NCBI RefSeq assembly: GCF_005311025.1
Contig: NZ_CP031747.1
Coordinates: 1,116,001-1,180,000 of the forward strand
Origin: Alcaligenes faecalis
GTDB lineage: Bacteria; Pseudomonadota; Gammaproteobacteria; Burkholderiales; Burkholderiaceae_B
DNA: 64,000 nt
Direction: 5' to 3'
Shown here: piece after piece, positions 8,862 through 55,899 of the stretch
Numbering within the stretch: the first letter of the stretch is position 1
Layout of the letters: each line of letters opens with the position of its first letter
Program-made: the position numbers and the translations under genes
The notes under the pieces: model-generated
Database searches by the model: none
What the model was told of the DNA's origin: nothing
Seen by the model: only the letters and a program-made list of their open reading frames with translations

Positions 8862-8875
8862 GGACGTCCGCGACG

Positions 8876-9364
8876 ATGCTGGGACAGATTATATGGATGG
8901 CTTTCAGCGCTTTGATGGGAGCCATCATGATTTCGATTGGTATTGCTCTGGAGTGGCGGGATTGGCTGCCTTATCTGGTCATCTTGCCCATGTTGATCGC
9001 AGTGGGTGGTTTTGTGGCTGGGTATAGGGGTTTTACGCGCTATTGGCGTGCTCGTCCTGAAGAGCTCTTGTATCAGCGTCTGCATCGTGCCGAAGTCGTC
9101 CCCCAACAGGCAATGATCGTCTCTCAGGACGAGCTGCTGCCAGAAGTCTTCAAATCTGCTTATCCGCTAGTGCGCCTGGGCCTGGACGTGGATGGTCAGA
9201 AAACCCATGTGGATGTGCTGGTGCAGCCCGAACTGAACAAGCGATTCAAACCGGGTAATTGGGTCAGCGTACTGTGCGATCCGGCCAATGCTCAGCTGTG
9301 TGCTCTGAACCGTGAACAGGTGACCTTGCAGCTGAAACCCGCCGCCAACTCCTATGGGGATTGA
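8876..9364 (+). CDS. Small membrane protein of the T6SS accessory operon, unknown function
   Basis: A 162-residue protein with two N-terminal membrane segments (IIWMAFSALMGAIMISIGIAL and the following LPYLVILPMLIAVGGFVAGY). They are followed by a soluble domain of about 110 residues that ends FKPGNWVSVLCDPANAQLCALNRE. The soluble part is beta-rich in appearance. I do not recognise a family. The ATG at 8876 lies 14 nt after the vgrG stop and 120 nt before the DUF2169 gene, so it is in the same operon. Possible roles are an inner-membrane docking protein or an immunity factor for an effector; nothing in the sequence decides this. Confidence 0.75.
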   Translation: MLGQIIWMAFSALMGAIMISIGIALEWRDWLPYLVILPMLIAVGGFVAGYRGFTRYWRARPEELLYQRLHRAEVVPQQAMIVSQDELLPEVFKSAYPLVRLGLDVDGQKTHVDVLVQPELNKRFKPGNWVSVLCDPANAQLCALNREQVTLQLKPAANSYGD

Positions 9365-9483
9365 TTGATGGTGGCGCTGGCTTCGCAGTTGATCGGGGAT
9401 GACGCACACGCGGGTCCGGAGCAGTCAGGCAGTGCTCCTGCTCCAAGTCAGTCCTGCTCGTGCTCTCCCAAAGGACAAGTCCC

Positions 9484-40900: not shown

Positions 40901-43900
40901 GATCCTGGTGGACGAGCTGGATATTCTGGCTCCGCTGGTTTTTGATGGTGAACATGCCCGCAGCCTGCGTTTTGTGCTGAGCCCGCGTGATGGTAGCTTC
41001 CATATCAAGAGTCGCCAACGCTTGAGCCAGGACGAGTGGGTGGTACACGCCAGCGGTCGTATTCTGGCTTCGGATGAACGCATGCCCGTGGCGGAACTCT
41101 CGCCCCTGGCCTCGGCTGAACTGCATATTGATCGCGATCGACACTATCGCTTGGCGCATTCCCTGGGTCTGGATTACGGTCCGGCCTTCCAGGGGTTGAA
41201 AGCCTCGCAGGTGCAAGGTACTTATCTGAGTGCCGAACTGGAGATGCCCGTCAGCCTGGAGCAAGATGGCTATCTGTTGCACCCGGCCTTGATGGACGTG
41301 TGCTACCAGTCTCTGGTGGATTTCTTCGCACAAGATATTGAAGCAGGCCAAGGCGTGGCCTTGCTGCCTGTGAAAGTAGGCCGTTTCACCCTGTCTACAG
41401 AAGGGCAGGTAACGCATTTCCGTGCACACCTGCGTCGTAGCAGTGCCCGTTCGGTACTGGCGGATTTCGAGTTGTATGGAGCTGATGGCCGTTTGCTGGC
41501 CAGCGCCCAGGCCTGCCGTTTCCGCGCTGCGTATTTCTTGCGCCAGGATCGCCACGCGGTGTCGAACTGGCAAATTACCCCGTATCTGCGTCCTCATCCT
41601 CGCGATGAGCGAGTTGCCGTTACGCTCTCGCCTGAGCAACTGGCCCAAAGCGGCTGGGCAGCACTGGCTGACCAGCAGCAAGAGCGAGAAACCTGGTTCC
41701 AGCAGACTTTGCCTTTGCTGGATGCCTTGAGCCTGTCCTTTATTTATGAAGCCTTCCAGAACGTAAAGCCTTCCGAACTCAGCACCGAAGTATTGAATAG
41801 CCCGTATGGCCGCTGGCTAAGCGAGCTGTTGCGCGCTGAAGAGCTGCTGCAAGATGACGAAGGCTATCGTGTGGTGGAGCAGGCCGATATGCCTGCCGCC
41901 CAGGACTTGTGGCGCACAATTTTGCAGGATTCGCCTAGCAGCTTGCCGCAACTGACCCAGATTGGTTCGGTCGGACGCCAATTGCCGGCCTTGTTGCGTG
42001 GCGATATTTCAGGCGAAAAACTGCTGGCTTCCTTGCGCCGTTCCCCCGTGGTTGAAGTGCTGTATGACGATGACCCCATGTATCTGGGTGTGCGTCTGGC
42101 ACTGGAAACCCAGTTGCGAGAACTGGCTGCGAACTTGCCTGCCTCCCAGCGACTGCGCGTGCTGGAAGTCGCCGTAGGCCCAAGCGATTTGCCCAAGACT
42201 CTGGCTGCTTGCCTGTCCGAAGACCAGTTTGAATACGTATTGGCTTTGCCAGATGCTGATTTGCAGGCTCGTCAGGCGACGCAGCACCATGCTTTGGCCA
42301 ACGTGCAGGTGCTCGGTTTTGATCTGCAAGACTGGCAACTGGAGCAGGTCGATAAGCCCCAGTTTGATGTCGTGATTTTGCGCCACAGCCTGCACCGTAC
42401 CGTGCATGTTCCTCCCGCCCTGATGCGTAGCAAACAATGGCTGGCGACGGGTGGGGGCCTGCTGGTGGCTGAGTGTCACCCTGACTGGCATGCAGACTTC
42501 TTGTCCGGTCTGGACCAAAGCTGGTGGCACGCCGCCGGCGAGTCGCAATCCTCCTCCTTGTTGTCGCCCGAAGGCTGGCACAAGGCGTTGGAGCAAGCAG
42601 GTTTTGAGCAGGTGCAAACTGCGCAAGAGCCTGCCGCACAGGAATTGAGTGAAGGTGCCTATTTGTTGCTGGCCAAGGCCGCCACAACGCAGGCGATTCC
42701 AAACCAGGAAGCCGTCGCTGCAGCGAAATGGGTCTTGTTGTTTGATGAGGCTTCTCAAGTTCAAGCCCATTCGTTGCAAGCCCGTTTGGAAGCAGCTGGC
42801 CAAACAGTTAACGCTCAAGTCTGGCCGCTCAGTGCCGACATTTTGGCTGATGAGAGTCCTCTGAATGTAGTGCAGATGCTGGGGTGGGCCGATACTGCTG
42901 CTGCGGTCAGTCAGACCAGCGCGCAACTGCTGAGCCTGACGCAGGACTTGTCCGCCCGTACCGCTGCAAGTCGCCTGTTCCTGGTGACGCAAGGCGGTGC
43001 CTTGCCGGCGATGGCAGAGGAATTGGATTGGGCGGTGAATCCCGCCCAGTCGGCCTTGTGGGGCTTTGGTCGCGTCGTGATGAATGAGCTGCCCGCCTTG
43101 TCCTGCACCTTGATTGATCTGGCCGGTGATGTGAATGCCAGCGATATCGCTCAGCGTCTGGAACTGGAGTTGCTGTGGCCGGATGAAGCAACAGAAATTG
43201 TCTTGTCTCAAGACGCACGCCATACCTTGGTGCTGGAAGAGGCTACTGCGGCAGCGACTGCCCAGCTAAGCCAGGACGCCCGCTTCAAGCTGGACTTTCA
43301 GGTGCCCGGACAACTGCGCAATCTGGAATGGCAAGCTGTTCAAGCGTCGAGCCTGGCTGCGGATCAGGTTGAAGTCCGTACCATGGCCGCAGGCCTGAAC
43401 TTCCGTGACGTGATGTATTTGATGGGCTTGTTGCCGGACGAAGCTGTAGAAAACGGTTTTGCCGGTGCCAGCCTGGGCCTGGAGTTCTCGGGTGTGGTCA
43501 CACGCGTTGGTGCTGATGTCACCAATTTGACGGTAGGCCAGCCGGTGATGGGTTTTGGTTCCTCCTGCTTTGCCAGCCATGTGGTGACACGTGCGGATGC
43601 TATCGCTTCCATGCCTGAAGGCTGGGATTTTGAAGCTGCCGCCACCGTTCCAACGGTGTTCTTCACGGTCTACTACGCCCTGACGCATCTGGCTCATATC
43701 CAGCCCGGTGAAAAAGTGTTGATACACGGTGCCGCAGGTGGTGTGGGGATTGCTGCAATCCAGCTGGCCCGTCATTTGGGCGCAGAGATTTATGCCACTG
43801 CTGGCACGGACGAGAAACGCGTATTCGCCTCCTTGCTGGGCGCTGACCATGTGTTCGATTCGCGCAGCCTGAGCTTTGCTCAAGACGTGATGGACGCCAC

Positions 43901-45539
43901 TGGCGGTGAAGGTGTGGACGTAGTGCTGAACTCGCTGGCGGGTGAGGCCATGCGCCGCAGCCTGGACGTCCTGAGTCCTTTTGGCCGTTTCCTGGAGTTG
44001 GGCAAGCGTGACTTCTTCGAGAACACGCCGATTGGTCTACGTCCCTTCAAGAGCAATATCAGCTACTTCGGTATTGATGCCGACCAACTGCTGACGGGAC
44101 GCCCAGCTTTGGCGGGACGTTTGTTCAAGGAAGTCATGGAGCTGTTCCATGATGGCGCGCTGTTCCCACTGCCTTACCGCAGCTTCGGTGCCGAGCATGT
44201 GGTTGATGCATTCCGCGCCATGCAGCAGGCTCGTCACATCGGCAAGCTGGTGGTTTCGCTGAAGGATGCCCAACCCCGTTTGCCTGCAACACAAATCGCT
44301 GCCCCTCTCGACTTGTCCGAACAGGGCACGTGGTTGGTTACGGGTGGCTTGTCTGGCTTCGGTTTGGCTTCCGCCCAATGGCTGGTCAAGCGTGGCGTGC
44401 GCTCTCTGATCCTGGCTGGTCGCCGCGGTGCCGATACTCCTGGTGCACAAGAGCTGCTGAAGCAGTTCCAGGCACAAGGCTGTCGCGTGCAAATTGTGGC
44501 GTGTGACGTCACGGATTTCGCAGCAGTGCAAGCTGTTGTTGCGCAGATTCAGACGGGTGATAGCCCACTGACTGGCGTGCTGCATGCTGCCGCCGTGTTT
44601 GATGACCGCCTGATCGCCAATATGGATCAGGACAGCTTGAACAAGGTGCTGCAGACCAAGTTGGTGGGTGCATGGAATCTGCACCTGGCTACTCAGGATT
44701 TGAAGCTGTCCCACTTCGTGCTGTATTCGTCTGTGACGACCTCTATTGGTAACCCCGGACAGGCGAACTATGTGGCCGCCAATGCAGGCCTGGAAGGTTT
44801 GACGCGCTTGCGCCAGAACCTGGGGCTGGCGGCGTCCTGCATTGCCTGGGGACCGATTGGCGATGCAGGTTACCTGACCCGCAATGAAACCGTGAAGGAC
44901 AGCTTGGGTAAACGTCTGGGCAAGGCACCGCTACAGTCGGATCAGGCATTGGATCAACTGGATCGCGTCCTGGCCGTCAATGGCGAAGTGTCCATTGTGG
45001 CCAACTTCGACTGGAATGCCTTGGCCCGCTTGCTGGCTTCGGCTCAGAGCGAACGCTTTGCCATCTTGAACCGTGCCCGCAAGGATCACGACTCAGGTAG
45101 TGATGGCCAGGATATTCACACCTTGATCGCGGGTAAAACGCCCGAGCAAATTCACGCTTTGGTGGCCGAGTGGGTGGCGCAGGAAGTTGCTAACATTCTG
45201 CGCACCGAAGTAGACCGTATTGAAACCCAGCGCTCCTTGCATGATCTGGGCATGGACTCCTTGATGGCTGTGGAACTGGCCCTGGGGTTGGAGCAACGCT
45301 TTGGCGTGCAGTTGCCCGCCATGGTGCTGAACGATTCTCCCACCGTCTGGAACGTCGCGGCCCGCATTGTGGACAAGTTGACGGCCGGTAGCGAGGACTC
45401 GGCAGAGCAGGACGCTGGGCATTTGGTAGCCGATGTCGTACGTCAGCACGGAGATGATATGTCCGAGGCTGACTTGCAAGGCTTGGCAAAAGATGTACGG
45501 CGATTGGCAGAAACAGGAACATCACTGATCAATGAGTAA
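37965..45539 (+). CDS. Type I polyketide/fatty-acid synthase of the capsule locus (RkpA/WcbR-like)
   Basis: A 2524-residue single-module synthase. Order: ketosynthase (Cys198 in DTACSSS, His334 in HGTGT, His372 in NLGH); acyltransferase (Ser647 in GHSVGE, with AFHS suggesting malonyl-CoA); dehydratase (His950 in DHKVGGAMVYPG, Asp1111); a methyltransferase-like stretch (about 1390-1570) whose SAM motif is degenerate; enoylreductase (about 1775-2100, HGAAGGVG); ketoreductase (VTGGLSGFG, Tyr2269); acyl carrier protein (Ser2432 in GMDSL). All reducing domains look complete, so it probably makes a saturated acyl chain iteratively. Homologues RkpA (Sinorhizobium) and WcbR (Burkholderia) serve capsule production. 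Translation starts at GTG 37965 after a weak GGTAGGG. It overlaps the next gene by 8 bp. Confidence 0.9.
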   Translation: MSQNTGKGAKELEASRTDINKSNTASGAIAIIGMAFRFPGDLSQPDQFWNALIEKRDLVTEIPADRWATAELQHDKRSEPGRSITFSAGVLSRIDEFDADFFGISPREAAWLDPQQRLLLELSWEAMENAGVLPSSMAGSDCAVYVGISGLDYGMRGLDDLASLTAHMMTGNTMSIAANRLSYIYDLHGPSMAVDTACSSSLVALHQACSSLRSGEASTALVGGVNLLLHPYPFVGFTKASMLSADGRCKAFDEAGNGYVRSEGGAVLMLKPLEQALADGDQVQAVILATGVNADGARKTGITIPSCQGQIELMRSVLERSGLTAADVDFVEAHGTGTAVGDPVETTAISAVYGKSREQRLPIGSVKANLGHMESASGMAGLVKTVLALQHQALPPALHLNTPNPAIDFDGLNLELLPQGRELQRTDGKPLVAGLNSFGFGGANAHVLLQAPVAPTAQSATVLNSGLPPLVLSGKTEAALREQAGNYADLLDGKTAQDFYDVSYAVTHRRQTLARCLIMQPETVEEGVAQLRAYAQGQAPQGLQTVDAPSKEGQLAFVYAGNGAQWLGMGVTLLRESPRFAALLSELDAMMKPLAGFSLLEQLQAEPAASRMDDTTVAQPLLFAVQVIVTRMLREDGIEPDAVAGHSVGEIAAAWAAGALDLEQAIRVICARSQAQGLTRGQGRMAVIGLSHEAVNTLLEGLGADLGVNVAGVNSPSNITLSGSLEGLQRIQSALEGQSVFFRLLDLDYAFHSPYMDGLLPHLEKSLGDLQPGQQSPQARFVSTVTGEELSPQELGVDYWWRNIREPVQFEQAIACLANQGCRVFLEIGPHAILQRYIRETLAQCEVQGVVLSSLRKHDDGPQRLTDTALHTLALLPTQLKARFPVAGNPVELPVYPWQRERHWYKNSTEGMRSIERRRVHDLLGWRLPDSDISWENVLDPVILPWLADHKVGGAMVYPGAAYLEMALAAACEWLGEALILVDELDILAPLVFDGEHARSLRFVLSPRDGSFHIKSRQRLSQDEWVVHASGRILASDERMPVAELSPLASAELHIDRDRHYRLAHSLGLDYGPAFQGLKASQVQGTYLSAELEMPVSLEQDGYLLHPALMDVCYQSLVDFFAQDIEAGQGVALLPVKVGRFTLSTEGQVTHFRAHLRRSSARSVLADFELYGADGRLLASAQACRFRAAYFLRQDRHAVSNWQITPYLRPHPRDERVAVTLSPEQLAQSGWAALADQQQERETWFQQTLPLLDALSLSFIYEAFQNVKPSELSTEVLNSPYGRWLSELLRAEELLQDDEGYRVVEQADMPAAQDLWRTILQDSPSSLPQLTQIGSVGRQLPALLRGDISGEKLLASLRRSPVVEVLYDDDPMYLGVRLALETQLRELAANLPASQRLRVLEVAVGPSDLPKTLAACLSEDQFEYVLALPDADLQARQATQHHALANVQVLGFDLQDWQLEQVDKPQFDVVILRHSLHRTVHVPPALMRSKQWLATGGGLLVAECHPDWHADFLSGLDQSWWHAAGESQSSSLLSPEGWHKALEQAGFEQVQTAQEPAAQELSEGAYLLLAKAATTQAIPNQEAVAAAKWVLLFDEASQVQAHSLQARLEAAGQTVNAQVWPLSADILADESPLNVVQMLGWADTAAAVSQTSAQLLSLTQDLSARTAASRLFLVTQGGALPAMAEELDWAVNPAQSALWGFGRVVMNELPALSCTLIDLAGDVNASDIAQRLELELLWPDEATEIVLSQDARHTLVLEEATAAATAQLSQDARFKLDFQVPGQLRNLEWQAVQASSLAADQVEVRTMAAGLNFRDVMYLMGLLPDEAVENGFAGASLGLEFSGVVTRVGADVTNLTVGQPVMGFGSSCFASHVVTRADAIASMPEGWDFEAAATVPTVFFTVYYALTHLAHIQPGEKVLIHGAAGGVGIAAIQLARHLGAEIYATAGTDEKRVFASLLGADHVFDSRSLSFAQDVMDATGGEGVDVVLNSLAGEAMRRSLDVLSPFGRFLELGKRDFFENTPIGLRPFKSNISYFGIDADQLLTGRPALAGRLFKEVMELFHDGALFPLPYRSFGAEHVVDAFRAMQQARHIGKLVVSLKDAQPRLPATQIAAPLDLSEQGTWLVTGGLSGFGLASAQWLVKRGVRSLILAGRRGADTPGAQELLKQFQAQGCRVQIVACDVTDFAAVQAVVAQIQTGDSPLTGVLHAAAVFDDRLIANMDQDSLNKVLQTKLVGAWNLHLATQDLKLSHFVLYSSVTTSIGNPGQANYVAANAGLEGLTRLRQNLGLAASCIAWGPIGDAGYLTRNETVKDSLGKRLGKAPLQSDQALDQLDRVLAVNGEVSIVANFDWNALARLLASAQSERFAILNRARKDHDSGSDGQDIHTLIAGKTPEQIHALVAEWVAQEVANILRTEVDRIETQRSLHDLGMDSLMAVELALGLEQRFGVQLPAMVLNDSPTVWNVAARIVDKLTAGSEDSAEQDAGHLVADVVRQHGDDMSEADLQGLAKDVRRLAETGTSLINE

Positions 45540-46872
45540 GAACGATCTAGCGCCAGGCAGTAAAGCACAACTGATACAGCGCATTCTGGGACGTAAAACC
45601 GGACAAGCGGCCAGCAATGGCCGCATGGCCGAGCAGTCCGCCACTCATCTGGGGGCGGACAGCCATATTCCGGAGTCCTTCACCCGCTTTGACCGCCATC
45701 CCGGTTACGAGAAAATGCTGGTGCCCAAGGCCATGGCTGATCGTATGGGCGTGCGTAACCCCTTTTTCCGCAGCCACGATGGTGTGGCCGCTGCGCACAC
45801 CCGTATCGACGGGCGTGACTATCTGAACTTTGCCAATTACAACTATCTGGGTCTTTCTGCACACCCGGAAGTGAATGCGGCCGCCAAAGCCGCGATGGAC
45901 CAGTACGGCACATCGGCTTCGGCCAGCCGTTTGGTAGCAGGCGAGCGCCGCGTCCAGCGTGAGCTGGAAGAAGAGCTGGCGCAGAACTATGAGGTGGATG
46001 ATTGCGTGGTTTTTGTCAGTGGACATGCCACTAACGTCAGCACCATTGGTTACTTGTTCGGTCCCAAGGATCTGGTGATTCACGATAGCCTGATCCACAA
46101 CAGTATTTTGCAAGGCATCCAGTTGTCGGGTGCCGCCCGCCGTTCCTTCCCTCACAACGACAGCGCCGCTCTGGAGCGCATTCTTGCCGAGATTCGTGGC
46201 CAGTTTGAACGTGTGCTGATTGTGATCGAAGGCTTGTACAGCATGGATGGCGACATTCCGAACCTGCCTGCATTTATTGACATAAAACGGCGGTATAAAG
46301 CGTTTTTGATGGTCGATGAAGCCCACGCCCTGGGCGTGCTGGGCAAGACAGGCCGCGGCTCGCACGAGCATTTTGGTGTGGCAGGCCGCGATGTCGACAT
46401 CTGGATGGGCACCTTGAGTAAGACCCTGGCAAGTTGCGGCGGCTATATCGCTGGCGACCGCGCGCTGGTGGAGCTGCTCAAGTACGCTGCCTCCGGCTTT
46501 GTCTACAGCGTGGGGATTTCTCCCGTGCTGGCGGCTGCTTCGCTTAAAGCCTTGCAGATCATGCGCCGGGAACCCGAGCGTGTGCATACCCTGCAAGAGC
46601 GGGGCAGTCAGTTTCTGAATTCGATGCGCTCGATGGGAATCAATACCGGTTTTGCCGAAGGCTATGCCGTGATTCCCGCGATTACAGGCAGTTCTCTTAA
46701 AGCAGTCAAACTGTCCGGCCAGTTGTTTGATGCCGGCCTGAATGTGCAACCCATTATCCATCCTGCGGTGGAAGAAAAAGCAGCGCGTTTGCGCTTTTTC
46801 CTGTCCTCCACACATAGCCAGGATGACATAGACCTGGCGTGTGAAATCGTTCACACGCTCATGAAGAAATAA
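45532..46872 (+). CDS. Alpha-oxoamine synthase (AONS/SPT family), RkpG/WcbT-like
   Basis: A 446-residue PLP enzyme. An N-terminal extension of about 95 residues precedes the fold-type I core (FANYNYLGLSAHPEV; YGTSASASRLVAGERRVQREL; the pocket Asp in MVDEAHALGVLG; the Schiff-base Lys297 in TLSKTLASCGGYI). This family condenses an acyl thioester with an amino acid and loses CO2, giving a 2-amino-ketone, as serine palmitoyltransferase does. The 8-bp overlap with the synthase gene implies that it takes that enzyme's acyl-ACP product. It is not the biotin enzyme BioF by context. The amino-acid partner (Ser, Ala or Gly) cannot be read from sequence with confidence. Confidence 0.88.
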   Translation: MSKNDLAPGSKAQLIQRILGRKTGQAASNGRMAEQSATHLGADSHIPESFTRFDRHPGYEKMLVPKAMADRMGVRNPFFRSHDGVAAAHTRIDGRDYLNFANYNYLGLSAHPEVNAAAKAAMDQYGTSASASRLVAGERRVQRELEEELAQNYEVDDCVVFVSGHATNVSTIGYLFGPKDLVIHDSLIHNSILQGIQLSGAARRSFPHNDSAALERILAEIRGQFERVLIVIEGLYSMDGDIPNLPAFIDIKRRYKAFLMVDEAHALGVLGKTGRGSHEHFGVAGRDVDIWMGTLSKTLASCGGYIAGDRALVELLKYAASGFVYSVGISPVLAAASLKALQIMRREPERVHTLQERGSQFLNSMRSMGINTGFAEGYAVIPAITGSSLKAVKLSGQLFDAGLNVQPIIHPAVEEKAARLRFFLSSTHSQDDIDLACEIVHTLMKK

Positions 46873-46874
46873 GC

Positions 46875-48074
46875 ATGGCTCAATTACTACACACAGCAGT
46901 AAGCAAGATTGCAGCAATGGGACGGCCAGTACTGGCCAGCACCCTGGTCGCCGTACTGGCCGGATGTGCCACGATGCCCGACTGGATGCCTGCAGACGGC
47001 CCCAGCCGCCAGCAAGTACAGGAACGACGTGAAGGCCGTATCGAAGGCATCACCCTGGTCAACGTGACAGACGAGTTGACCAAGAAGTTGGCCGCTAAAA
47101 AGCGCATGGGTGACTTTGCCGCCCAGTTCCCCAGCACAGGTTCGAACAACTACCTGATTGGCCCCGGCGATGTGCTGGAAGTGTCGGTTTGGGAAGCGCC
47201 GCCGGCCATGCTGTTTGGCAGCATTTCTCTGGATCCCAAGGCAACGGCAGCAACCACCAATGCCGTCGCTTTCCCTCAGCAGATGGTCACGCCCGACGGC
47301 ATGATCAGCATGCCTTTCGCTGGCCGTATTGCCGTCAAAGGCCGCAACACCCAACAGATTGAAGAAAGCATTGCCAAGCGTCTGCAAGGCAAGGCCAATA
47401 ATCCGCAGGTTCTGGTGCGCGTCATTCAGAACAACACCTCGAACGTGACGGTCGTGGGTGAGGTCAATCAAAGCGTCTTGATGCCCTTGACGCCTAAAGG
47501 TGAGCGTTTGCTGGATGCCCTGGCCGCAGGCGGTGGCGTCAAGCAAGCAGTCAACCGCATCGCCATTCAGCTCTCGCGAGAGCTGAACACATCCACCATG
47601 GCGCTGGATACGATCATCCGTAATCCAAACCAGAACATCATGTTGAAACCGGGTGATGTGATTACGGCGCTGTATCAGAACCAGAGCTTCTCCATTTTGG
47701 GTGCCACCGGCAAGAACGAAGAAATTCCATTTGAAGCTCAGGGCATTTCCCTGGTACAGGCCCTGGCCCGTTCGGGTGGTCTGGATACGTCACGAGCTGA
47801 TGCCCGCGGTGTGTTTGTCTTCCGCTTTGAGGATGCTGCGTTGGTGGACGGTGCACCTGAATCGACACTGCTGGACAAGAAGGGCGTCGTGCCCGTGGTG
47901 TATGAAATCGACCTGCGTGACCCGGCTTCTTTCTTTGTTACACAGAACTTCCCGGTGCAGGATAAGGACGTGATTTATGTTTCGAACTCGCCAGCGGCGG
48001 AGTTCCAGAAATTCCTGCGTTTAGTGGTGTCGGTGGCTGTGCCTAGTACGACGTTGAACAACATGATGAAGTGA
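46875..48074 (+). CDS. Capsule polysaccharide export outer-membrane lipoprotein (KpsD/BexD/CtrA type)
   Basis: A 399-residue lipoprotein with signal sequence and lipobox VLAGC (Cys31). Then come the Poly_export domain (NNYLIGPGDVLEVSVWEAP; MVTPDGMISMPFAGRIAVKG) and two SLBB-like beta-grasp domains (VTVVGEVNQSVLMPL; FSILGATGKNEEIPF). It ends with VSVAVPSTTLNNMMK, which resembles CtrA/BexD-type proteins. It forms the outer-membrane and periplasmic channel for the polymer. It starts 2 nt after the oxoamine synthase stop and 42 nt before the permease gene, so it is in the same operon. Confidence 0.9.
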   Translation: MAQLLHTAVSKIAAMGRPVLASTLVAVLAGCATMPDWMPADGPSRQQVQERREGRIEGITLVNVTDELTKKLAAKKRMGDFAAQFPSTGSNNYLIGPGDVLEVSVWEAPPAMLFGSISLDPKATAATTNAVAFPQQMVTPDGMISMPFAGRIAVKGRNTQQIEESIAKRLQGKANNPQVLVRVIQNNTSNVTVVGEVNQSVLMPLTPKGERLLDALAAGGGVKQAVNRIAIQLSRELNTSTMALDTIIRNPNQNIMLKPGDVITALYQNQSFSILGATGKNEEIPFEAQGISLVQALARSGGLDTSRADARGVFVFRFEDAALVDGAPESTLLDKKGVVPVVYEIDLRDPASFFVTQNFPVQDKDVIYVSNSPAAEFQKFLRLVVSVAVPSTTLNNMMK

Positions 48075-48116: not shown

Positions 48117-48905
48117 ATGAGTAAGCAGGTGCGCAGCCCCATGGCCGTCACTTGGGCGGTCTGGCGGGCGTTAGTTTTGCGAGAGTCCCTGGATCGCTTG
48201 TTTGATATGCGGGCTGCCTGGTTCTGGTTGCTGATGGAGCCAGTGCTGCATATCAGTTTCATCACGTTCATCTTCACAGTGATTCGTTTGCGTACAGTCG
48301 GTGGCATTGATGTCACTGTCTGGATTGTGGTGGGGATGCTGGCGTTTTTTATGTTTCGCCGTACTGCGATGCAGGTGATGCATGCAGTCGATAGCAATAA
48401 GCCTTTGTTTGCTTATAGGCAGGTGCAGCCGTTTGATACCTCTGTTGCTCGTGGCGTCCTGGAAGCGTTTTTGATGACTTTGGTGTCTGCAATTATCTTG
48501 ACCGGTGCAGCATTGCTTGGGCATGACGTACGGCCTGATGATCCTCTGCAGGTTTTAGTGACGATGTTTGGATTATGGCTCTTTGGCATAGGCTATGGCT
48601 TGGTTGCCTCTGTGTTGATGGCCTTGGTTCGCGAAACTGAGCACATACTGAAAATCATGATGATGCCTTTGTATTTGATTTCAGGGGTCATCATGCCTAT
48701 TTCTGCTGTTCCTCAACCTTATCGGGATCTGCTTTTGTTTAATCCTTTAGTGCATGGATTGGAGTTAGTGCGCAAAGGCTTTTCGAATTACTACCACATG
48801 GTGCCGGGCATCAGCATGGGATACCTGTATCTGTGGGGGATAGTCAGTCTGTTTTTAGGCCTGATTTTGTATAGACGCTTCACACAACAGTTGGTGATGA
48901 AATGA
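48117..48905 (+). CDS. kpsM: Capsule ABC exporter permease (KpsM type)
   Basis: A 262-residue ABC-2 permease with about six membrane helices. An N-terminal cytoplasmic stretch (WRALVLRESLDRLFDMRAAWFWLLMEP) and the C-terminal VIMPISAVPQPYRDLLLFNPLVHGLELVRKGF are typical of KpsM, BexB and CtrC. It pairs with the ATPase gene, which overlaps its stop by 4 bp, to move lipid-linked capsule polymer across the inner membrane. Confidence 0.93.
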   Translation: MSKQVRSPMAVTWAVWRALVLRESLDRLFDMRAAWFWLLMEPVLHISFITFIFTVIRLRTVGGIDVTVWIVVGMLAFFMFRRTAMQVMHAVDSNKPLFAYRQVQPFDTSVARGVLEAFLMTLVSAIILTGAALLGHDVRPDDPLQVLVTMFGLWLFGIGYGLVASVLMALVRETEHILKIMMMPLYLISGVIMPISAVPQPYRDLLLFNPLVHGLELVRKGFSNYYHMVPGISMGYLYLWGIVSLFLGLILYRRFTQQLVMK

Positions 48906-49564
48906 TCGTCGTCAATGATGTTTATAAGCGCTACAAGACCGCCCATGGCGTGGGCCGTTGGGTATTGGAAGGAGTAAACCTGACAATTCCACCCAAGGTG
49001 AATGTGGGTTTGATCGGCGCTAACGGTGCCGGTAAATCTACCTTGCTACGCTTGATCGGCGGGGTGGACCATCCCAATAAGGGGACTGTGCAGCGGTTGT
49101 GCAGGGTTTCTTGGCCTATGGGGAATGGTGGGCTGGAGGGTACCTTGACGGGCCGTCAAAACGCGAAGTTTGTGTGCCGAGTACATGGGCATCAAGACGA
49201 TTTGGCAGACCGGCTCGCTTTTATTAAAGATTTTTCTGAATTGGGCCGAGCGTTTGAGGAGCCGGTCTATACCTATTCCTCTGGAATGCGCTCCCGCCTC
49301 CAGTTTGCCTTGTCGTTTGCTTTTAATTTCGATGTGTATATTTCGGACGAGGTGACGGCGGCAGGTGATGCAGCATTCCGTAAGAAAGCAGCCGATGCTT
49401 TCAAAACCATGACAAATCGTGCAGGCCTGATCATGGTGGCTCACGACAATAAAACCTTAAAACAATTTTGCCAGGCTGGTGTCTGGCTGCATCAAGGGCG
49501 AGCGCACTGGTTTGACCAGATTGACGATGCGCTCAATGCCTACAAGGATTCACTTCCAAAATGA
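48902..49564 (+). CDS. kpsT: Capsule ABC exporter ATPase (KpsT type)
   Basis: A 220-residue ATPase of the polysaccharide-exporter group. Walker A is GANGAGKSTLLRLI, the signature-region equivalent is YSSGMRSRLQFALSFA and Walker B is FDVYISDEVTAAGD. It is short and lacks a C-terminal carbohydrate-binding domain, as usual for KpsT/CtrD. That means chain capping is not read by this ATPase in the way Wzt reads it in O9a-type systems. It overlaps both neighbours by 4 bp. Confidence 0.94.
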   Translation: MIVVNDVYKRYKTAHGVGRWVLEGVNLTIPPKVNVGLIGANGAGKSTLLRLIGGVDHPNKGTVQRLCRVSWPMGNGGLEGTLTGRQNAKFVCRVHGHQDDLADRLAFIKDFSELGRAFEEPVYTYSSGMRSRLQFALSFAFNFDVYISDEVTAAGDAAFRKKAADAFKTMTNRAGLIMVAHDNKTLKQFCQAGVWLHQGRAHWFDQIDDALNAYKDSLPK

Positions 49565-50751
49565 CAGATACACCTCAAGTCACTACGCAGGCTGCTAGTG
49601 CCGCTCCCGATAAGGCTGTTTCAAAGAAACCATCTTTTGGGGCTCGCCTCCGATCATGGTTTTCATTGCGTTTATTTGATCACGCCGTTAGTGCGATTCT
49701 GATTTTGGCTGTTTTGGCTTCGGCGTACTGGTTAGTTTTTGCCTCGAACCGCTATGTATCCGAGGCTAACGTAATTATTCGAAAGACAGACTCGGTAGGG
49801 GCGCCGTCTTTTGACCTAGGGATGTTGGTATCGGGTGTAGCTACTGTTGATCGCGCGAATCAGCTGTTGTTACGTGATTACTTGTTGTCCGTGGACATGC
49901 TCAAGAAGCTTGATGAGTCTTTGGACTTACGTACGCATTACAGCTCCTCGGACCATGATTTGGTGTCGCGGATGTGGTTTCAGGACGCCTCGCTAGAGTG
50001 GTTCCATCGTCATTATCTGCGTCGTGTAGAGGTGGAGTTTGATGACTTCTCTGGTGTGTTACGTATCAAGGTCCAAGCTTACAACCCCGAAATGGCACAG
50101 GCTATTACCCAGCAGTTGGTCCAGGAAGGCGAGCGTTACATGAACGTGCTTGGCCATGAAATGGCCCAGGTGCAAGTGAATTTCTTGGTTACTCAAGTTG
50201 ATCAAGCTCAGGACCGCTTTCAGAAAGCCAGTCAGGACCTGTTGAACTATCAAAACAAGGCCGGTTTGCTGTCGCCCCAGGCTACAGCAGAAAGCATTAA
50301 TGCCATTGTGGCTGCTTTAGAAGGGCAGCGCGCTCAATTGCAGACGCAACTCGCCTCGTTGCCCAAAACTTTGGATCGAGACCATCCCAATATATTGATG
50401 TTGAAGCAATCCTTGAGAGCTGTGGATGCGCAAATTAAAGAGGAAAAGCTGAAGTTGGCGACGCCATCGGGTGGGACATTGAATAAATATGTAGAAGAGT
50501 TTTATCGCCTTGAAATGAACGTGCAGTTCACCCAAGAGCTTTACAAGTCCTCTTTGAGTGCTCTGGAGAAAGGGCGTATTGATGCAACTCGCATGTTGGA
50601 GAAAGTGTCAGTGTTGCAATCGGCGACTTTGCCTGAGTATCCAATGGAGCCGCGTCGTCTCTATAACACCTTGGTGACCTTGCTGTTGGCGTTGATCCTG
50701 GCTGGGATATTGAAGCTGCTCAAGAGTATTGTGCTTGACCATGTCGACTAA
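49561..50751 (+). CDS. kpsE: Capsule export inner-membrane protein (KpsE/CtrB/BexC type)
   Basis: A 396-residue polysaccharide co-polymerase-like protein. One membrane helix near the N-terminus (about 44-62, AVSAILILAVLASAYWLVFA) and one near the C-terminus (LVTLLLALILAGILKLL) flank a long periplasmic coiled-coil region. The conserved PEYPMEPRRL-type motif (LPEYPMEPRRLYN) lies before the second helix. It bridges the ABC exporter and the outer-membrane channel. From this gene on the DNA becomes less GC-rich than upstream. Confidence 0.92.
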   Translation: MTDTPQVTTQAASAAPDKAVSKKPSFGARLRSWFSLRLFDHAVSAILILAVLASAYWLVFASNRYVSEANVIIRKTDSVGAPSFDLGMLVSGVATVDRANQLLLRDYLLSVDMLKKLDESLDLRTHYSSSDHDLVSRMWFQDASLEWFHRHYLRRVEVEFDDFSGVLRIKVQAYNPEMAQAITQQLVQEGERYMNVLGHEMAQVQVNFLVTQVDQAQDRFQKASQDLLNYQNKAGLLSPQATAESINAIVAALEGQRAQLQTQLASLPKTLDRDHPNILMLKQSLRAVDAQIKEEKLKLATPSGGTLNKYVEEFYRLEMNVQFTQELYKSSLSALEKGRIDATRMLEKVSVLQSATLPEYPMEPRRLYNTLVTLLLALILAGILKLLKSIVLDHVD

Positions 50752-50775: not shown

Positions 50776-53493
50776 ATGTCTATGTCACCTGTTGTGTCGT
50801 CTGAGTTAGGTCAGGAGTGCTCTGAGTCCAAGCAGATGCAGCATATCGAGAAGGAAAACTGCTTGTTGTTAGACCAGTTGCAGGTCGTGCAGGAAGAGTT
50901 GTGTCGTTTGTACGAGAGCCCCCAAGGTGTTGGGAGAGGTTTGACGCAGACAGTCATTAATGTGGCGCCTGTAGATTTGCGACTTGTAGAGTCTCAGGCG
51001 GAAGCTGCCCGGTTGGAGTGCATGCTCAAGGTGCAAACCCAACTACATGATTTAAAGACTCAACACGCCCTAGCCGCTCAGCTAGGCGATATTTTGATTG
51101 AGGGTGTGCAGTCCACTGGCTCGTTAATTTCGGTACCTGGGCGTTTACGCCAAGCTTGGCGTCAAAGTCGTCGTACGCAGCCCCCTGCTGTGTTGGGTGG
51201 AAAGTCTTTCGACAAAGTTATTCAGGCTTATCAGCAAGGTGGGGACCAACAGGTCGAGGCCTTGCTGAATCAAGCTTCTGTTTCAAAAAATGTGCAAGCC
51301 AGTGCTTGGACGGCTGTCGCCCGTACTTACATGACGACTGAGCCTACCCTGGTCGCAACGATGGCGCGCCGTGCGTTTGCTCTGGAGCCACGAGGGTTTC
51401 GTCAAAAGTGGCTGGCATTCCGATTACATGAGTCGGGGGATTTGCTGGAGGCAGAAGCACTCTTGGCGCTCTTGCCGGAAGATGTGACTTTTACTGATTC
51501 TGAGGCGCGTCAACGTGATCGTTTGTTGAAGCAAGCAAAAGAAGTGCGTTTGGCTCAAGCCCGTTCTTTGTCTGGGGTTGAGGCGCAGTATGAGGATGTG
51601 CGGCGCCAATGGGATGAGCTGGCCCAGTCGCGCAATACCTTGGCCGGTGTAGTTGAGCAACAAGGTATACAGCTGTCGAATGCGCGAGATGAGGTGCAGC
51701 ATTTAAGGCAAGAGAAACAAGAGCAACTTGTAATAGCTGAAGAGTTGCGCGCACAGATCCAGCAGTTAGAAGAGGCGTACCAGGAAAGGCTCCAAGAGCG
51801 AAAGCTTGAAGCGGATCAACAGCGACAACTTGTGCTTCAAGAGCAAGACAATACGCAGGCTGCGCTTAAGCAAGTGGCGGACTTGAAGCGTGAACTTGAG
51901 CAAGAAGGACTGTTGAGATCACAGTTGCAGCGTGAGAGCATGGGTTTGCAAGCTGATCTGAAGCGGCTTAAACAAACGCTTCTAGAGAAAGAAGCTCAAG
52001 CGGGGCAATGGTTTGAGCAGTGCGTCACTGTGCAGGGCGGCTTAGCGGAGATGGCTCAGCAATATGAGGGCCTGAAGGCGCAGTTGCATACGCATCATCA
52101 GGACAAAGAGGCAGCTCTGTCACAACTTCAAACTTTGACGATCGCTCACGATGAATTGCTTGTCATAGCAGATCAACGCCTGGAGGAAGTTGGGTCCCTA
52201 TTAGTTCAGTTGGAAGAGTCAGTTGTTGAGTCTGAGGAGCTTCGGGGGCAATTGCGGGAGACGCAGGCAGAGAAGAACTCTTTAGCGTCACAAGTGCAAG
52301 AGTTGGTAGGTGCTCGTGATGAGCTGGCTGGACTTGCTGCCCAGCGCTTGGATGAAGTGCATTCCTTGCAGTCTCAAGCTCAGGCATTAGCCCAGCAACT
52401 GGATGAGGCAAGACAGCAGATCCGTGTGGAGCGAACAGACTATAAGTCTTTGCAGGCTCAGCTGAATCAAGTTGTTCAAATGCGTGATGAGCATATTGCT
52501 TTAGCCGCACAGCGTCAGGGAGAATTGCTGCAGCAAGCTAAAGAGCAACTGAACTTGGAAAAGAGTAAAGCAGCGCTGGAGGCCCGTCAGCTGGAGTTAC
52601 AGCAATCCTTGGCGGCGCAGACTGCGCGTGAAACAGATCTGCTAGAGCGGCTGAGCGCCCAAGTGCAGTCCTTGGTTGCTCGTGACGAGACAGCTCCGAG
52701 AATGCAAGAGGAGTTGTTTAGGAAACAATCTGAAGAACTGCTCCGGGTTCGTCGCCATATTGAAACAACGGTTAAGAACAATAGTGCTAATGCTGTACGG
52801 CAGATACAGTCTTTCGTGGGAATGCAAGAGTATTTCGCTACAGGTGTATTACCTGCCTTCAATAGTGAAGCCCACAGTTGGCCGGTGTCTGCTGATTTCG
52901 CACTGTGTTTGATGCGGTGTTTGACGCTGAAGCCATATGACCTTGTGGTTGAGCTTGGCTCTGGTATGTCTACGGTTATTGTTGCCAAGACGCTGGCCTT
53001 AATGTCGGAGCGTAATGGCTCTCGCCTGATTCCGTTCGTTTCGTTCGAACATTTGGAATCGTACTATCAACAAACTTTAGCCCACCTTCAACAGGCAGGA
53101 TTAGAAAAGGCGGTTCAACTGACGTTAGCACCGTTGGAGGATTGGCAAGCAGCTGACGGTCAAGTCTATCCGTATTACAGCTGTCAAAGCACCCTGGCCA
53201 AACTTGCCAAGCAAAGACAAATGTCTCGAAAGCGCATTTTGGTGATTGTAGATGGCCCACCGGCTGCTACTGGTCCACAAGCTCGCTATCCTGCAGGTCC
53301 TTTGTTCGTGGAGTACTTCCCAAATGCGCAGATTGATTTCTTGATGGATGACTATATCCGTGAGGATGAAAAGCAAGTCGCTCAACGTTGGTTAGCCGAT
53401 ATAGAAGCTCAAGGACTTGCGGGTACATCTACTGAATACAAGCTTGAAAAAGACGCCTGTTTAATAACTGTTCACCCTAAAGACTCAAAGTAA
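50776..53493 (+). CDS. Coiled-coil protein with C-terminal methyltransferase-like domain
   Basis: A 905-residue protein. The N-terminus has the [20 protein letters not shown] motif seen in several capsule glycosyltransferases. A membrane-proximal-looking LGDILIEG...[13 protein letters not shown] segment and a TPR-like helical region (about 145-250) follow. Residues about 255-690 form a very long heptad-rich coiled coil (many Gln/Glu/Leu). The last about 200 residues form a Rossmann-type domain with [11 protein letters not shown] (724 on) and [13 protein letters not shown], consistent with a SAM-dependent methyltransferase. It lies 25 nt after kpsE and 4 nt before wecB. A role as chain-capping enzyme with a coiled-coil ruler, as in WbdD, is my inference. 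No signal peptide is present, so it is cytoplasmic. Confidence 0.75.
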
Positions 53494-53497
53494 GTTT

Positions 53498-54619
53498 ATG
53501 AAAATTTTGACTGTATTTGGCACACGACCTGAAGCCATCAAAATGGCTCCGGTGGTTAAGGCTTTGGCTGCTGACTCTGCATTTGAAGCGCGCGTTTGCG
53601 TCACTGGTCAGCACCGCCAGATGCTGGATCAGGTTCTGGATATTTTTTCCATCAAACCTGATTTTGACTTGAACCTGATGAAGCCAGGCCAGGATCTGTA
53701 TGACATCACCAGCAACGTGCTGTTGGGTATGCGGGATGTGTACAAACAATGGCAACCAGACATGATCCTGGTGCATGGTGATACGACTACCACCATGGCC
53801 GCAGCTTTGTCGGCCTATTACGCCAAGATCAAGGTCGGTCACGTAGAGGCTGGCTTGCGTACTCATAATAAGTACTCGCCGTGGCCAGAGGAAATGAACC
53901 GCCGCCAAGCAGGCGTACTGGCTGATGTGCACTTTGCTCCAACCGAGCAATCACAATCGCATTTGTTGCGTGAAGGTGTAGATCCCAAGACGGTACACAT
54001 TACGGGCAATACCGTCATCGATGCGCTGCTGGATGTGGCAGCACGCGTACGTCAGGACTCGGAACTGCGCAGCCGTTTTGAGGCTCAGTTCTCTTTTATC
54101 AATCCAGCCAAACGCTTGGTTTTAGTGACGGGGCATCGTCGCGAAAACTTTGGCTCTGGCTTTGAAAACATCTGCCTGGCCTTGCGCCAGATTGCCTCCC
54201 GTGGCGATGTGCAGGTGGTGTATCCAGTGCACTTGAATCCAAATGTTCAGGAACCAGTACGTCGTATCTTATCCGACGTTTCCGATGTTCATTTGATCGA
54301 ACCACTGGATTATTTGCCCTTTGTTTACCTAATGGATCGTTGTGACCTTTTGGTCACCGACTCCGGGGGCATTCAGGAAGAAGCGCCTTCTTTGGGCAAA
54401 CCGGTATTGGTGATGCGTGACACGACCGAGCGCCCTGAAGCCGTGGATGCAGGAACTGTGCGTTTGGTGGGAACAGAAACACAAGCCATTGTCAGCGCTG
54501 CCACGCAGCTGCTGGATGACGCTGCTGAATATGAGCGTATGGCACGGGCGCACAACCCTTATGGGGACGGCAAAGCCGCCACCCGCATTAGTGAAATTTT
54601 AAAAACCTTGATCTCTTGA
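53498..54619 (+). CDS. wecB: UDP-N-acetylglucosamine 2-epimerase (non-hydrolysing)
   Basis: A 373-residue epimerase that makes UDP-ManNAc from UDP-GlcNAc. Key segments are present: [12 protein letters not shown] (Arg), [10 protein letters not shown] (Asp), [10 protein letters not shown] (Glu), WPEEMNRR (Glu), TGHRRENFG (His) and [21 protein letters not shown]. The length is typical. It supplies the dehydrogenase gene directly downstream, so the capsule should contain ManNAc-derived sugar. Confidence 0.96.
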
Positions 54620-54633
54620 TTCGGAAGACCAGC

Positions 54634-55899
54634 ATGTTTGAAACTCTCTCCATGATCGGCTTGGGCTATATCGGCCTGCCTACTGCAACATTATTTGCCT
54701 CACGCCGCAAAAAGGTCATTGGCGTTGATGTGAACGCTTACGCGGTCGACACGATCAATCAAGGCCGTATTCATATTGTTGAACCTGAACTGGATATGCT
54801 GGTGCAGGCCGCCGTGCACGGTGGTTACTTGCGCGCTACGCTGACCCCAGAACCTGCTGACGCGTTTCTGATCGCCGTCCCGACCCCCTTCCTGGAAGGC
54901 AACAAGCCTGACCTGAGCTATATCGCCGACGCCGCTAAAGCCATTGCGCCAGTGCTGGCCAAAGGCAATCTGGTTATTCTGGAGTCGACGTCCCCTGTTG
55001 GTACGACCGAGCAATTGGCGCAGTGGCTGGCTGAAGCTCGTCCTGATCTGAGCTTTCCTCAGCAGGCAGGTGAGGAGGCTGATATTCAGGTGGCCTACTG
55101 CCCAGAACGTGTTTTGCCCGGTCGCGTAGTGCATGAGCTGGTTAGCAATGACCGTGTTATTGGTGGCATGACTCAAAAAGCTACCGAGATGGCAATTGAG
55201 CTGTACCGAATTTTTGTGGAAGGTGCCTTGGTACCAACTAATGCTCGCACTGCTGAAATGTGCAAACTGACAGAGAACAGCTTCCGCGACGTGAATATCG
55301 CATTTGCCAACGAGCTGTCCCTGATTTGCGATCGCTTGAATATTAATGTGTGGGAACTGATCAGCCTGGCTAACCGTCACCCACGCGTTAATATTTTGCA
55401 GCCTGGTGCCGGGGTGGGTGGTCACTGCATCGCCGTAGATCCTTGGTTCATCGTGGACAAGACGCCTGAAGAGGCTCGCATTGTGCGCTTGGCTCGTGAG
55501 ATTAACGACTACAAGCCTGAATGGGTTGTAGAGAAAGTTAAAGCCGCTATTGCAGGTGTTTTGTCGTTGCGTCCTGATGCGCGTATGGCCGATATCAAAG
55601 TGGCTTGCCTGGGTCTGGCGTTCAAACCCGATATCGATGACTTGCGTGAAAGTCCTGCTGTTGGTGTTGCCAAGAAAATTGCCAGCCTGGGCTGCAAGGT
55701 GCAAGCCGTAGAACCCAATATCAGCGAATTGCCAGCCAAGCTACAAGGTACGGGTATTGAGTTGTCTGCTTTGGGTAGCGCCATGGCTGATGCCGATGTT
55801 GTCTGCGTTCTTGTTAAACACCGTCCATTCATCGAGCAAGTTGCTGAGATTCGCAAGCATGCTCAGTGCATCGACGTTGTAGGTTTGTTTGCGGAATAA
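54634..55899 (+). CDS. wecC: UDP-N-acetyl-D-mannosamine dehydrogenase
   Basis: A 421-residue NAD-dependent enzyme that oxidises UDP-ManNAc to UDP-ManNAcA. It has the N-terminal Rossmann motif MIGLGYIGLPTA, the SPVGTT loop, TENSFRDVNIAFANE and the catalytic Cys in GVGGHCIAVDPW. The C-terminal domain starts at about VACLGLAFKPDIDDLRESPA. The ATG at 54634 follows GGAAG; an upstream TTG at 54616 would overlap wecB. ManNAcA is a uronic acid, which matters for the lyase gene at 59431. Confidence 0.95.
   Translation: MFETLSMIGLGYIGLPTATLFASRRKKVIGVDVNAYAVDTINQGRIHIVEPELDMLVQAAVHGGYLRATLTPEPADAFLIAVPTPFLEGNKPDLSYIADAAKAIAPVLAKGNLVILESTSPVGTTEQLAQWLAEARPDLSFPQQAGEEADIQVAYCPERVLPGRVVHELVSNDRVIGGMTQKATEMAIELYRIFVEGALVPTNARTAEMCKLTENSFRDVNIAFANELSLICDRLNINVWELISLANRHPRVNILQPGAGVGGHCIAVDPWFIVDKTPEEARIVRLAREINDYKPEWVVEKVKAAIAGVLSLRPDARMADIKVACLGLAFKPDIDDLRESPAVGVAKKIASLGCKVQAVEPNISELPAKLQGTGIELSALGSAMADADVVCVLVKHRPFIEQVAEIRKHAQCIDVVGLFAE

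Follow-up and report, generated by a model that had tools for sequence, protein, structure and literature searches.

The capsule locus discussed here raises the question of what a protein that joins a long coiled coil to a methyltransferase-like domain does between the genes for polysaccharide export and those for sugar-nucleotide synthesis. The locus lies in a stretch of 64,000 nucleotides from Alcaligenes faecalis (NCBI RefSeq assembly GCF_005311025.1, contig NZ_CP031747.1, positions 1,116,001 to 1,180,000 of the forward strand), which will be called the window. The protein has 905 residues and consists of an N-terminal module (N-module), a coiled coil and a methyltransferase domain; its open reading frame (ORF) was called at 50776..53493 on the + strand with an ATG start, and it is the single match to this protein in its own 4.2 Mb single-contig genome (E <= 0.01). 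A sequence-only reading of this DNA had proposed a chain-terminating methyltransferase with a built-in ruler for capsule length. The explanation that we favor, and consider rather probable as a whole, is that the protein is a coiled-coil-tethered, probably metal-dependent, S-adenosylmethionine (SAM)-dependent O-methyltransferase of the capsule assembly complex. In this mechanism, for which we infer the docking, the metal use, the acceptor and the methyl position, the N-module (a heptad segment, a helical hairpin and a tetratricopeptide repeat (TPR)-like bundle) would dock the protein at the membrane or exporter end and the coil would hold the C-terminal enzyme away from the docking point. The enzyme would act in the cytoplasm on the capsule chain or on a conserved portion of that chain, methylating it ahead of export by KpsM/KpsT. 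The computed results used here are the architecture, the fold, the SAM motif, the acidic triad, the purifying selection, the locus context and the occurrence of N-module plus coil and methyltransferase as split genes. Judging from sequences and structural models, this would be a real and conserved capsule O-methyltransferase on a docked coil that is probably active.

The methyltransferase domain

Residues 666-905 (52771..53490, + strand) form a class I O-methyltransferase domain with a predicted catechol O-methyltransferase (COMT)-like fold, in agreement with the C-terminal methyltransferase proposed earlier. When the C-terminal region was compared directly with solved structures the matches were all weak (E 1.1 upward), so a 54-sequence profile was needed, and its best match was COMT (E 5.3e-4). 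Methyltransf_24 of Pfam is matched by 17 of the 54 aligned members (E <= 0.01). An AlphaFold model of the domain built from 54 rows has a mean predicted local distance difference test score (pLDDT) of 89.7. The best matches of this model in the PDB are catechol O-methyltransferases (Z 18.5, root-mean-square deviation (rmsd) 2.3, 167 aligned; VIA), and the mycinamicin sugar O-methyltransferase MycF is also similar (Z 15.9, rmsd 3.7, 182 aligned). The likeness to COMT and MycF-type enzymes lies in the fold and in the placement of the acidic triad, whereas sequence identity is 9-19% among the matches listed.

The conserved residues were examined in a 57-sequence alignment, which holds the window protein and 56 of 60 relative ranges (L045, L076, L078 and one of the two from L024 were omitted). 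SAM motif I, E726-L-G728-S-G730 (52951..52965, + strand), has its E, G and G in all 57 sequences, including that of the window, and position 758, which follows strand 2, is likewise acidic (E or D) in 57/57. A Rossmann methyltransferase fold (in the predicted model), motif I and the acidic residue after strand 2 are thus all present. The putative metal ligands are D826 (53251..53253, + strand), which follows strand 4 and is D in 55/57, and D858-D859 (53347..53352, + strand), which follow strand 5 and are D in 55/57 and 56/57. All three are placed where COMT binds its metal.

The methyltransferase is also the most conserved part of the protein, with 70% (G003) and 63% (G007) identity to the window in two relatives whose coils are 39% and 35% identical to it. 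Over 10 pairs from five species the methyltransferase has a ratio of nonsynonymous to synonymous substitution rates (dN/dS) of 0.05-0.15, compared with 0.07-0.18 in the N-module and 0.15-0.24 in the coil. Because of the fold, motif I, the acidic triad and this purifying selection, the modeled domain is most likely an active O-methyltransferase, and it is probably metal-dependent. The same data bear on an unlikely alternative, namely that the essential component is the coil protein, acting as a scaffold for assembly, and that the methyltransferase is a dispensable addition to it. The conservation of the methyltransferase, which has the lowest dN/dS of the domains in all four comparisons with the window, argues against this.

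The coiled coil and the N-terminal module

The coil covers residues ~251-626 (51526..52653, + strand) as scored by a COILS-type script (P>=0.5, MTK matrix). The segments above threshold are 251-411, 423-456, 467-519 and 521-626, for a total of 354 residues. The coil is therefore ~376 residues interrupted by three short breaks; the earlier description of about 430 continuous residues was right that the coil is long and overstated its extent somewhat. A composition artefact was considered and rejected, as 343 of the 405 residues from 256 to 660 scored as coil, whereas 50 composition shuffles averaged 127.5 and reached 213 at most.

The N-module (residues 1-250; 50776..51525, + strand) was missed by the sequence-only reading and is conserved in relatives. 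Its model is helical, with a mean pLDDT of 83.5 and values under 50 at residues 1-12 and 51-63. It comprises a heptad segment of the EN.LLL.QL..VQEEL type (residues 26-47; 50851..50916, + strand), a helical hairpin, LG.ILI...S....VP..L...WR, that may be membrane-associated (residues 98-133; 51067..51174, + strand) and a TPR-like helical part (residues 136-250; 51181..51525, + strand). In structure comparison the model of the TPR-like part resembles YbbN (Z 10.3, rmsd 2.2 over 85 residues), and in profile searches it matches designed TPR proteins. This module may dock the protein.

The heptad segment is of the type EN-LLL-QLH-VQEELE. As a regular expression it matches 23 of the 1672 ORFs of the fetched loci, near copies included, and gives zero matches on the reversed ORF sequences. 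By this expression it repeats up to three times in the coil proteins that are encoded upstream of the methyltransferase in related loci. Run over a sample of 200 genomes from the phylum, a profile of the segment has hits in two, one of them the window's own; the string QLHQVQEELE was not found in the literature searched. The other genome contributes a locus found by the segment alone (L089; G252 C1:1293000-1312000), where at 8734-11718 two coil-rich ORFs adjoin ABC-transporter-like ORFs as read from the ORF starts alone. This suggests that the segment marks coil/ATP-binding cassette (ABC)-transporter loci such as this one.

Distribution and architecture of the family

A collection of 84,980 species was scanned with two short peptide patterns, so the 55 loci that were found are a lower bound. 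The ORF was recovered in 54 of them, with some cut by contig ends. Together with plasmid, genus and window sequences there were 69 domain matches, and after seven were dropped (two duplicates and five weaker than 1e-20) 62 remained; the locus counts include near copies (from Alcaligenes, and the pair of Chlorobiaceae loci L035 and L036). The closest named relative among the fetched loci is that of Alcaligenes sp. SORT26. The gene is found in seven of ten genomes of the genus, the window's included, and of the 61 genomes searched altogether, 10 have a match to the methyltransferase domain. A search of a phage collection gave no match to the family. Of the 60 loci with sufficient flanking sequence, 37 have a WecB-like gene no more than 500 bp downstream, and 29/44 encode a homologue of KpsT or KpsE upstream.

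The coil and the methyltransferase may be carried by one protein or by two. Among 51 loci with 2.5 kb of upstream sequence, the methyltransferase protein carries at least 100 coil residues in 26 and fewer in 25. The next upstream ORF is coil-rich for 18 of the 25 low-coil methyltransferases and for 7 of the 26 coil-bearing ones, compared with a background of 48/865 other ORFs in which those upstream neighbors are included. In Methylobacillus, Accumulibacter, Rehaibacterium and Leeia (L040, L049, L053 and L058) the N-module and its coil are encoded by a separate gene at most 0.6 kb upstream of the methyltransferase. N-module and methyltransferase are thus fused in the window clade and separate neighbors in four loci, which supports a functional link of N-module, coil and methyltransferase. 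Domain order is also flipped within the family, since two cyanobacterial members (L078 8813-10564 and L076 7560-8858) have the methyltransferase first and the coil last.

In a 57-row methyltransferase tree built by a quick method, the long-coil label needs four changes, three of which are forced by starred branches. The window-type fusions fall within a starred set of 14 rows, nine long and five short, in which the fused form nests among unfused ones; HZ34, one of the five short rows, shares the window-type architecture but has a shorter coil. A second group of 19 mostly gammaproteobacterial rows has 15 long-coil members, most with a different head (an 'IGAG..LIEP'-type domain). Coil and methyltransferase were therefore probably linked more than once in evolution, and such repeated linkage fits a functional link between them. 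By reading, L077, L082, L075, L074 and L003 have an N-terminal head with IGAG...LIEP or a similar stretch that looks like a second Rossmann-like domain, and the coil in these proteins may join two methyltransferase-like domains.

Several observations weigh against a docked capsule methyltransferase. The search of the genus found no match in three of its ten genomes, 15 of the 44 loci have no KpsT/KpsE homologue in the flank examined, and 7 of the 25 low-coil genes lack a coil-rich neighbor upstream. The window member itself has no Pfam methyltransferase match. The case for membrane association of hairpin 98-133 is weak, as the most hydrophobic stretch of the N-module (103-120) has a mean Eisenberg value of 0.44 compared with 0.47 in parts of the methyltransferase.

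Coil length

Family methyltransferase proteins carry from 0 to 423 scored coil residues. The spread bears on two alternatives to the tethered enzyme that we favor. In one, the protein is a WbdD-like terminator in which the methyltransferase caps the non-reducing end to stop growth and the length of the coil sets the length of the chain before the cap is added; in the other, the enzyme O-methylates a sugar in each repeat unit and the coil merely serves as a scaffold or oligomeriser. We regard both as unlikely, the second a little less so. The drift of coil length and placement across the family is what a decorator of repeats would allow, and the 25 of 51 relatives with little or no coil on the methyltransferase speak against a terminator with a ruler.

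Closer to the window the length is fixed. In four other species the protein has exactly 905 residues and zero indels in the coil, despite 18-27% residue differences there (coil identity to the window is 73-82%), and this favors a ruler. Two further members of the genus have 924 and 1013 residues. A spacer would behave in this way, but the fixed length can also be explained by common descent and by exchange between species; in the four pairs compared, the WecB proteins are 97-100% identical. A separate pair in the genus points to recent exchange, as the WecB of L021 (5449-6570) and that of L019 (12112-13233), from two species, are 99.7% identical and the adjacent methyltransferase proteins are 53% identical over the aligned 489 residues.

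Two natural pairs are informative. In the first, two species with 905-residue proteins (G001 and G002) have 96% identical proteins and different genes after wecC; one of them has, after wecC, a gene for a 653-residue product that is unmatched in the examined stretch of the other. Nearly the same protein beside different genes counts against a decorator and fits a conserved rather than a repeat-specific acceptor, and the identical coil length in this setting also counts against a ruler. In the second pair, Bordetella sp. LUAb4 and Achromobacter sp. HZ34, the N-module is 88% and the methyltransferase 90% identical, whereas the coil region has 373 residues in LUAb4 and 224 in HZ34. This difference of 149 residues occurs between close relatives whose neighboring products are 88-94% identical (KpsD 94%, KpsM 91%, KpsT 93%, KpsE 88%, WecB 93%, WecC 93% and glycosyltransferase 88%), which again argues against a ruler; an unnamed upstream gene is 73% and a downstream gene 81% identical. 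If the coil were a ruler the two strains would be predicted to make chains of different lengths, so that the pair provides a natural test. The coil gaps between them are 32, 28, 49 and 40 residues, and a Caballeronia/Paraburkholderia pair has a single coil gap of 35. Heptad-preserving indels were considered, and with three of five gaps being multiples of seven the numbers are too few to build on.

The capsule locus

The gene run that leads to the 905-residue protein begins with a type I polyketide synthase (PKS; 37965-45539; KS, AT, DH, MT, ER, KR and ACP domains by Pfam) and a BioF-like gene (45532-46872). These are followed on the + strand by genes assigned by family matches, which encode an outer-membrane polysaccharide export protein of the KpsD/Wza type (46875..48074), a KpsM-type permease (48117..48905), a KpsT-type ATPase of 220 residues (48902..49564) and an inner-membrane protein of the BexC/CtrB/KpsE family (KpsE/CtrB-type; 49561..50751). 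Downstream on the same strand, Pfam identifies a WecB-type UDP-GlcNAc 2-epimerase (53498..54619) and a nucleotide-sugar dehydrogenase (54616..55899) that is called WecC-type after an annotated Caballeronia locus. A glycosyltransferase fusion, a heparinase-like gene and a deacetylase-like gene, the last name also borrowed from an annotated Caballeronia locus, lie downstream as well. With the KpsE-family gene 24 bp upstream and the wecB-type gene 4 bp downstream, the protein does lie between export and sugar-nucleotide genes as had been read. KpsD, KpsM, KpsT and KpsE homologues are all present, as in a group 2/3-type ABC-dependent capsule locus; they are called homologues and not named members because their scores fall below the curated NCBIfam equivalog cut-offs. 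Among the matches listed, the literature on Alcaligenes capsules has nothing on this locus.

The KpsT-type ATPase has no cap-binding domain, which bears out the earlier claim. Its Pfam matches are ABC_tran and, more weakly, mainly families of other P-loop ATPases; Wzt_C (PF14524) is not among them, and a search of the whole genome for Wzt_C gave no match. That neither KpsT nor any other part of the genome shows a cap-reading domain is a further point against a terminator with a ruler. A whole-genome search for KpsC/KpsS (PF05159), with an E. coli genome as a control, also gave no match. PF05159 is missing in seven of nine other genomes or records searched and present in E. coli pAL.H8 and in an Oceanisphaera genome, so the family as a whole is not marked by its absence. 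That an ABC-dependent capsule can lack KpsC/KpsS is known from the Vi antigen of Salmonella Typhi (PMC12220298); the window locus differs in its PKS and BioF-like gene, and neither a PKS nor a coiled-coil methyltransferase is seen for the Vi locus in the excerpts of that paper.

Two side observations concern the surroundings. The PKS and BioF-like gene stand at the head of the capsule locus, and with no KpsC/S match in this genome they may perhaps make an unusual lipid anchor. Additionally, a gene run at ~5884-31908 of the window resembles a type VI secretion cluster as read from the sequence alone.

Comparison with WbdD and other terminators

WbdD is the chain terminator of E. coli O9a/O8 and K. 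pneumoniae O3/O5. It is built in the order methyltransferase, kinase, coil, and then a membrane-associated helix and polymerase recruitment site (PMC3482155, PMC11231755). Like WbdD, the window protein is encoded in a glycan locus with an ABC transporter and carries both a methyltransferase and a long coil, and as in WbdD, where the enzyme lies at the coil end opposite the recruitment end (PMC3482155, PMC11231755), its N-module lies opposite the enzyme. A WbdD-like geometry of docking end, coil and enzyme in mirror image is therefore supported, with the docking end being the putative element; this inverted geometry is also an argument for a terminator, as is the WbdD order of the two cyanobacterial members. 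The differences are in the defining features. WbdD has its methyltransferase first, whereas here the coil (~251-626) precedes the methyltransferase; the O9a type of WbdD has a kinase and the O8 type has none, and no kinase match was found in the window protein (Pfam, E <= 1); and the partner Wzt has a C-terminal cap-binding module that the window KpsT lacks. The counterpart of the membrane helix and recruitment site may be the modeled hairpin, whose hydrophobicity is not distinctive. The window protein also belongs to a capsule-type KpsD/E locus and has an N-module with a TPR-like part. Because order, kinase and cap-reading partner differ, it is not a WbdD, although by analogy it may still work like one: of the parallel drawn earlier, the long coil, the domain order and the inverted polarity stand, and chain termination and a ruler function are conjectural. 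WbdD was not among the structure matches listed for the methyltransferase domain, which excludes nothing.

Other terminators show similar combinations. In the relevant passages of PMC11231755, a terminating protein with a coil is described as marking those ABC-dependent O antigens that are terminated; these depend on a cap read by the exporter, and their Wzt carries the cap-binding module. The passages cite Haemophilus influenzae type b, with an ABC-dependent capsule, as having no terminating residue. In Klebsiella pneumoniae the O4 terminator ORF7-O4 has a TPR-like bundle beside its coil and the O7 terminator ORF6-O7 has a methyltransferase domain and a coil (PMC11231755). The coil marker and the TPR-like bundle of one terminator both favor a terminating role. 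These proteins differ from that of the window in that their enzymes are N-terminal, that of O4 being a 3-deoxy-D-manno-oct-2-ulosonic acid (Kdo) transferase and that of O7 adding a kinase and C-terminal glycosyltransferases (PMC11231755).

Coil and methyltransferase proteins in E. coli capsule loci

A search of the literature that combined the topics coiled coil, methyltransferase and capsule locus had a sole match, PMC13171606, in which E. coli capsules are described as having putative methyltransferases with coils of variable length. Its authors do not expect the variation to be critical, which favors a decorator of repeats. In 2023 a SAM-dependent methyltransferase gene was placed first in region 2 of a group 3 cluster (PMC10433991). 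The figure-legend abbreviations for known E. coli group 3 repeats in that paper list no O-methyl. This would fit a methyl outside the repeat, as a terminator predicts.

In the E. coli loci that we examined, a methyltransferase-first, coil-second protein is encoded directly after kpsE (L092 11814-14543, L094 11814-14543 and L096 11806-14448) and has 348-503 scored coil residues. The corresponding gene of E. coli F5505-C1 (L093 11814-14386) looks broken because it is annotated as two overlapping ORFs of 136 and 729 residues. L092, L093 and L094 are chromosomal and L096 is on a plasmid; in the plasmid locus L095 transposase remnants follow kpsE. We infer that the passage in PMC13171606 refers to these proteins. 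They share with the window protein the slot directly after kpsE and the combination of a methyltransferase with a coil of variable length, and differ in having the Pfam methyltransferase match at residues 65-181, the coil after it and another C-terminal end. Filing the window protein with them was rejected, as the family profile has no match to them (E <= 10). Members of the window's family also occur in E. coli: the pAL.H8 member has blastn matches in 40 of 5426 genomes, 39 of them at 60-80% identity, and the one chromosomal case checked by profile (L090) belongs to the family. Since the methyltransferase-first proteins and the window family both occupy such loci, coil plus methyltransferase near kpsMTE is, on the sequences compared, a recurring theme with at least two builds unconnected by the window-family profile.

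E. coli also provides the evidence for the scaffold with an optional methyltransferase. In the K96 strain M12 (L091 18950-19963) a coil protein of 337 residues without a methyltransferase match is encoded directly after kpsE. Two E. coli loci match the pAL.H8 upstream coil protein by blastn over a short part (7-8%) of the query, and no gene in the stretch read is annotated as a methyltransferase, with hypothetical genes outside this check. By transposon insertion sequencing the kps-locus genes all appeared to be required except one predicted glycosyltransferase gene and rmlB, with polar effects possible (PMC13410964). Against a scaffold role by analogy, the K96 protein was not detected as a relative of the window protein by profile search.

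Implications for capsule length control

Within the explanation of a tethered capsule O-methyltransferase, placement of the methyl group at the non-reducing end, that is, terminal capping, is evenly balanced, and the coil as a ruler is doubtful. The boldest version, which we consider improbable as a joint claim, is that a membrane-docked coil ruler of inverted polarity O-methylates the capsule end as a second, independent solution for chain length. It would operate in a system that lacks both a cap-reading ATPase and a KpsC/S Kdo linker, with a ruler and enzyme that can be one polypeptide or two that interact, and with docking via a shared QLHxVQEELE-type zipper. The idea of coil plus methyltransferase is already in print for E. 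coli capsules (PMC13171606). A conserved coiled-coil methyltransferase in capsule loci without a cap reader would bear on whether capsule length is controlled by modification of the chain end.

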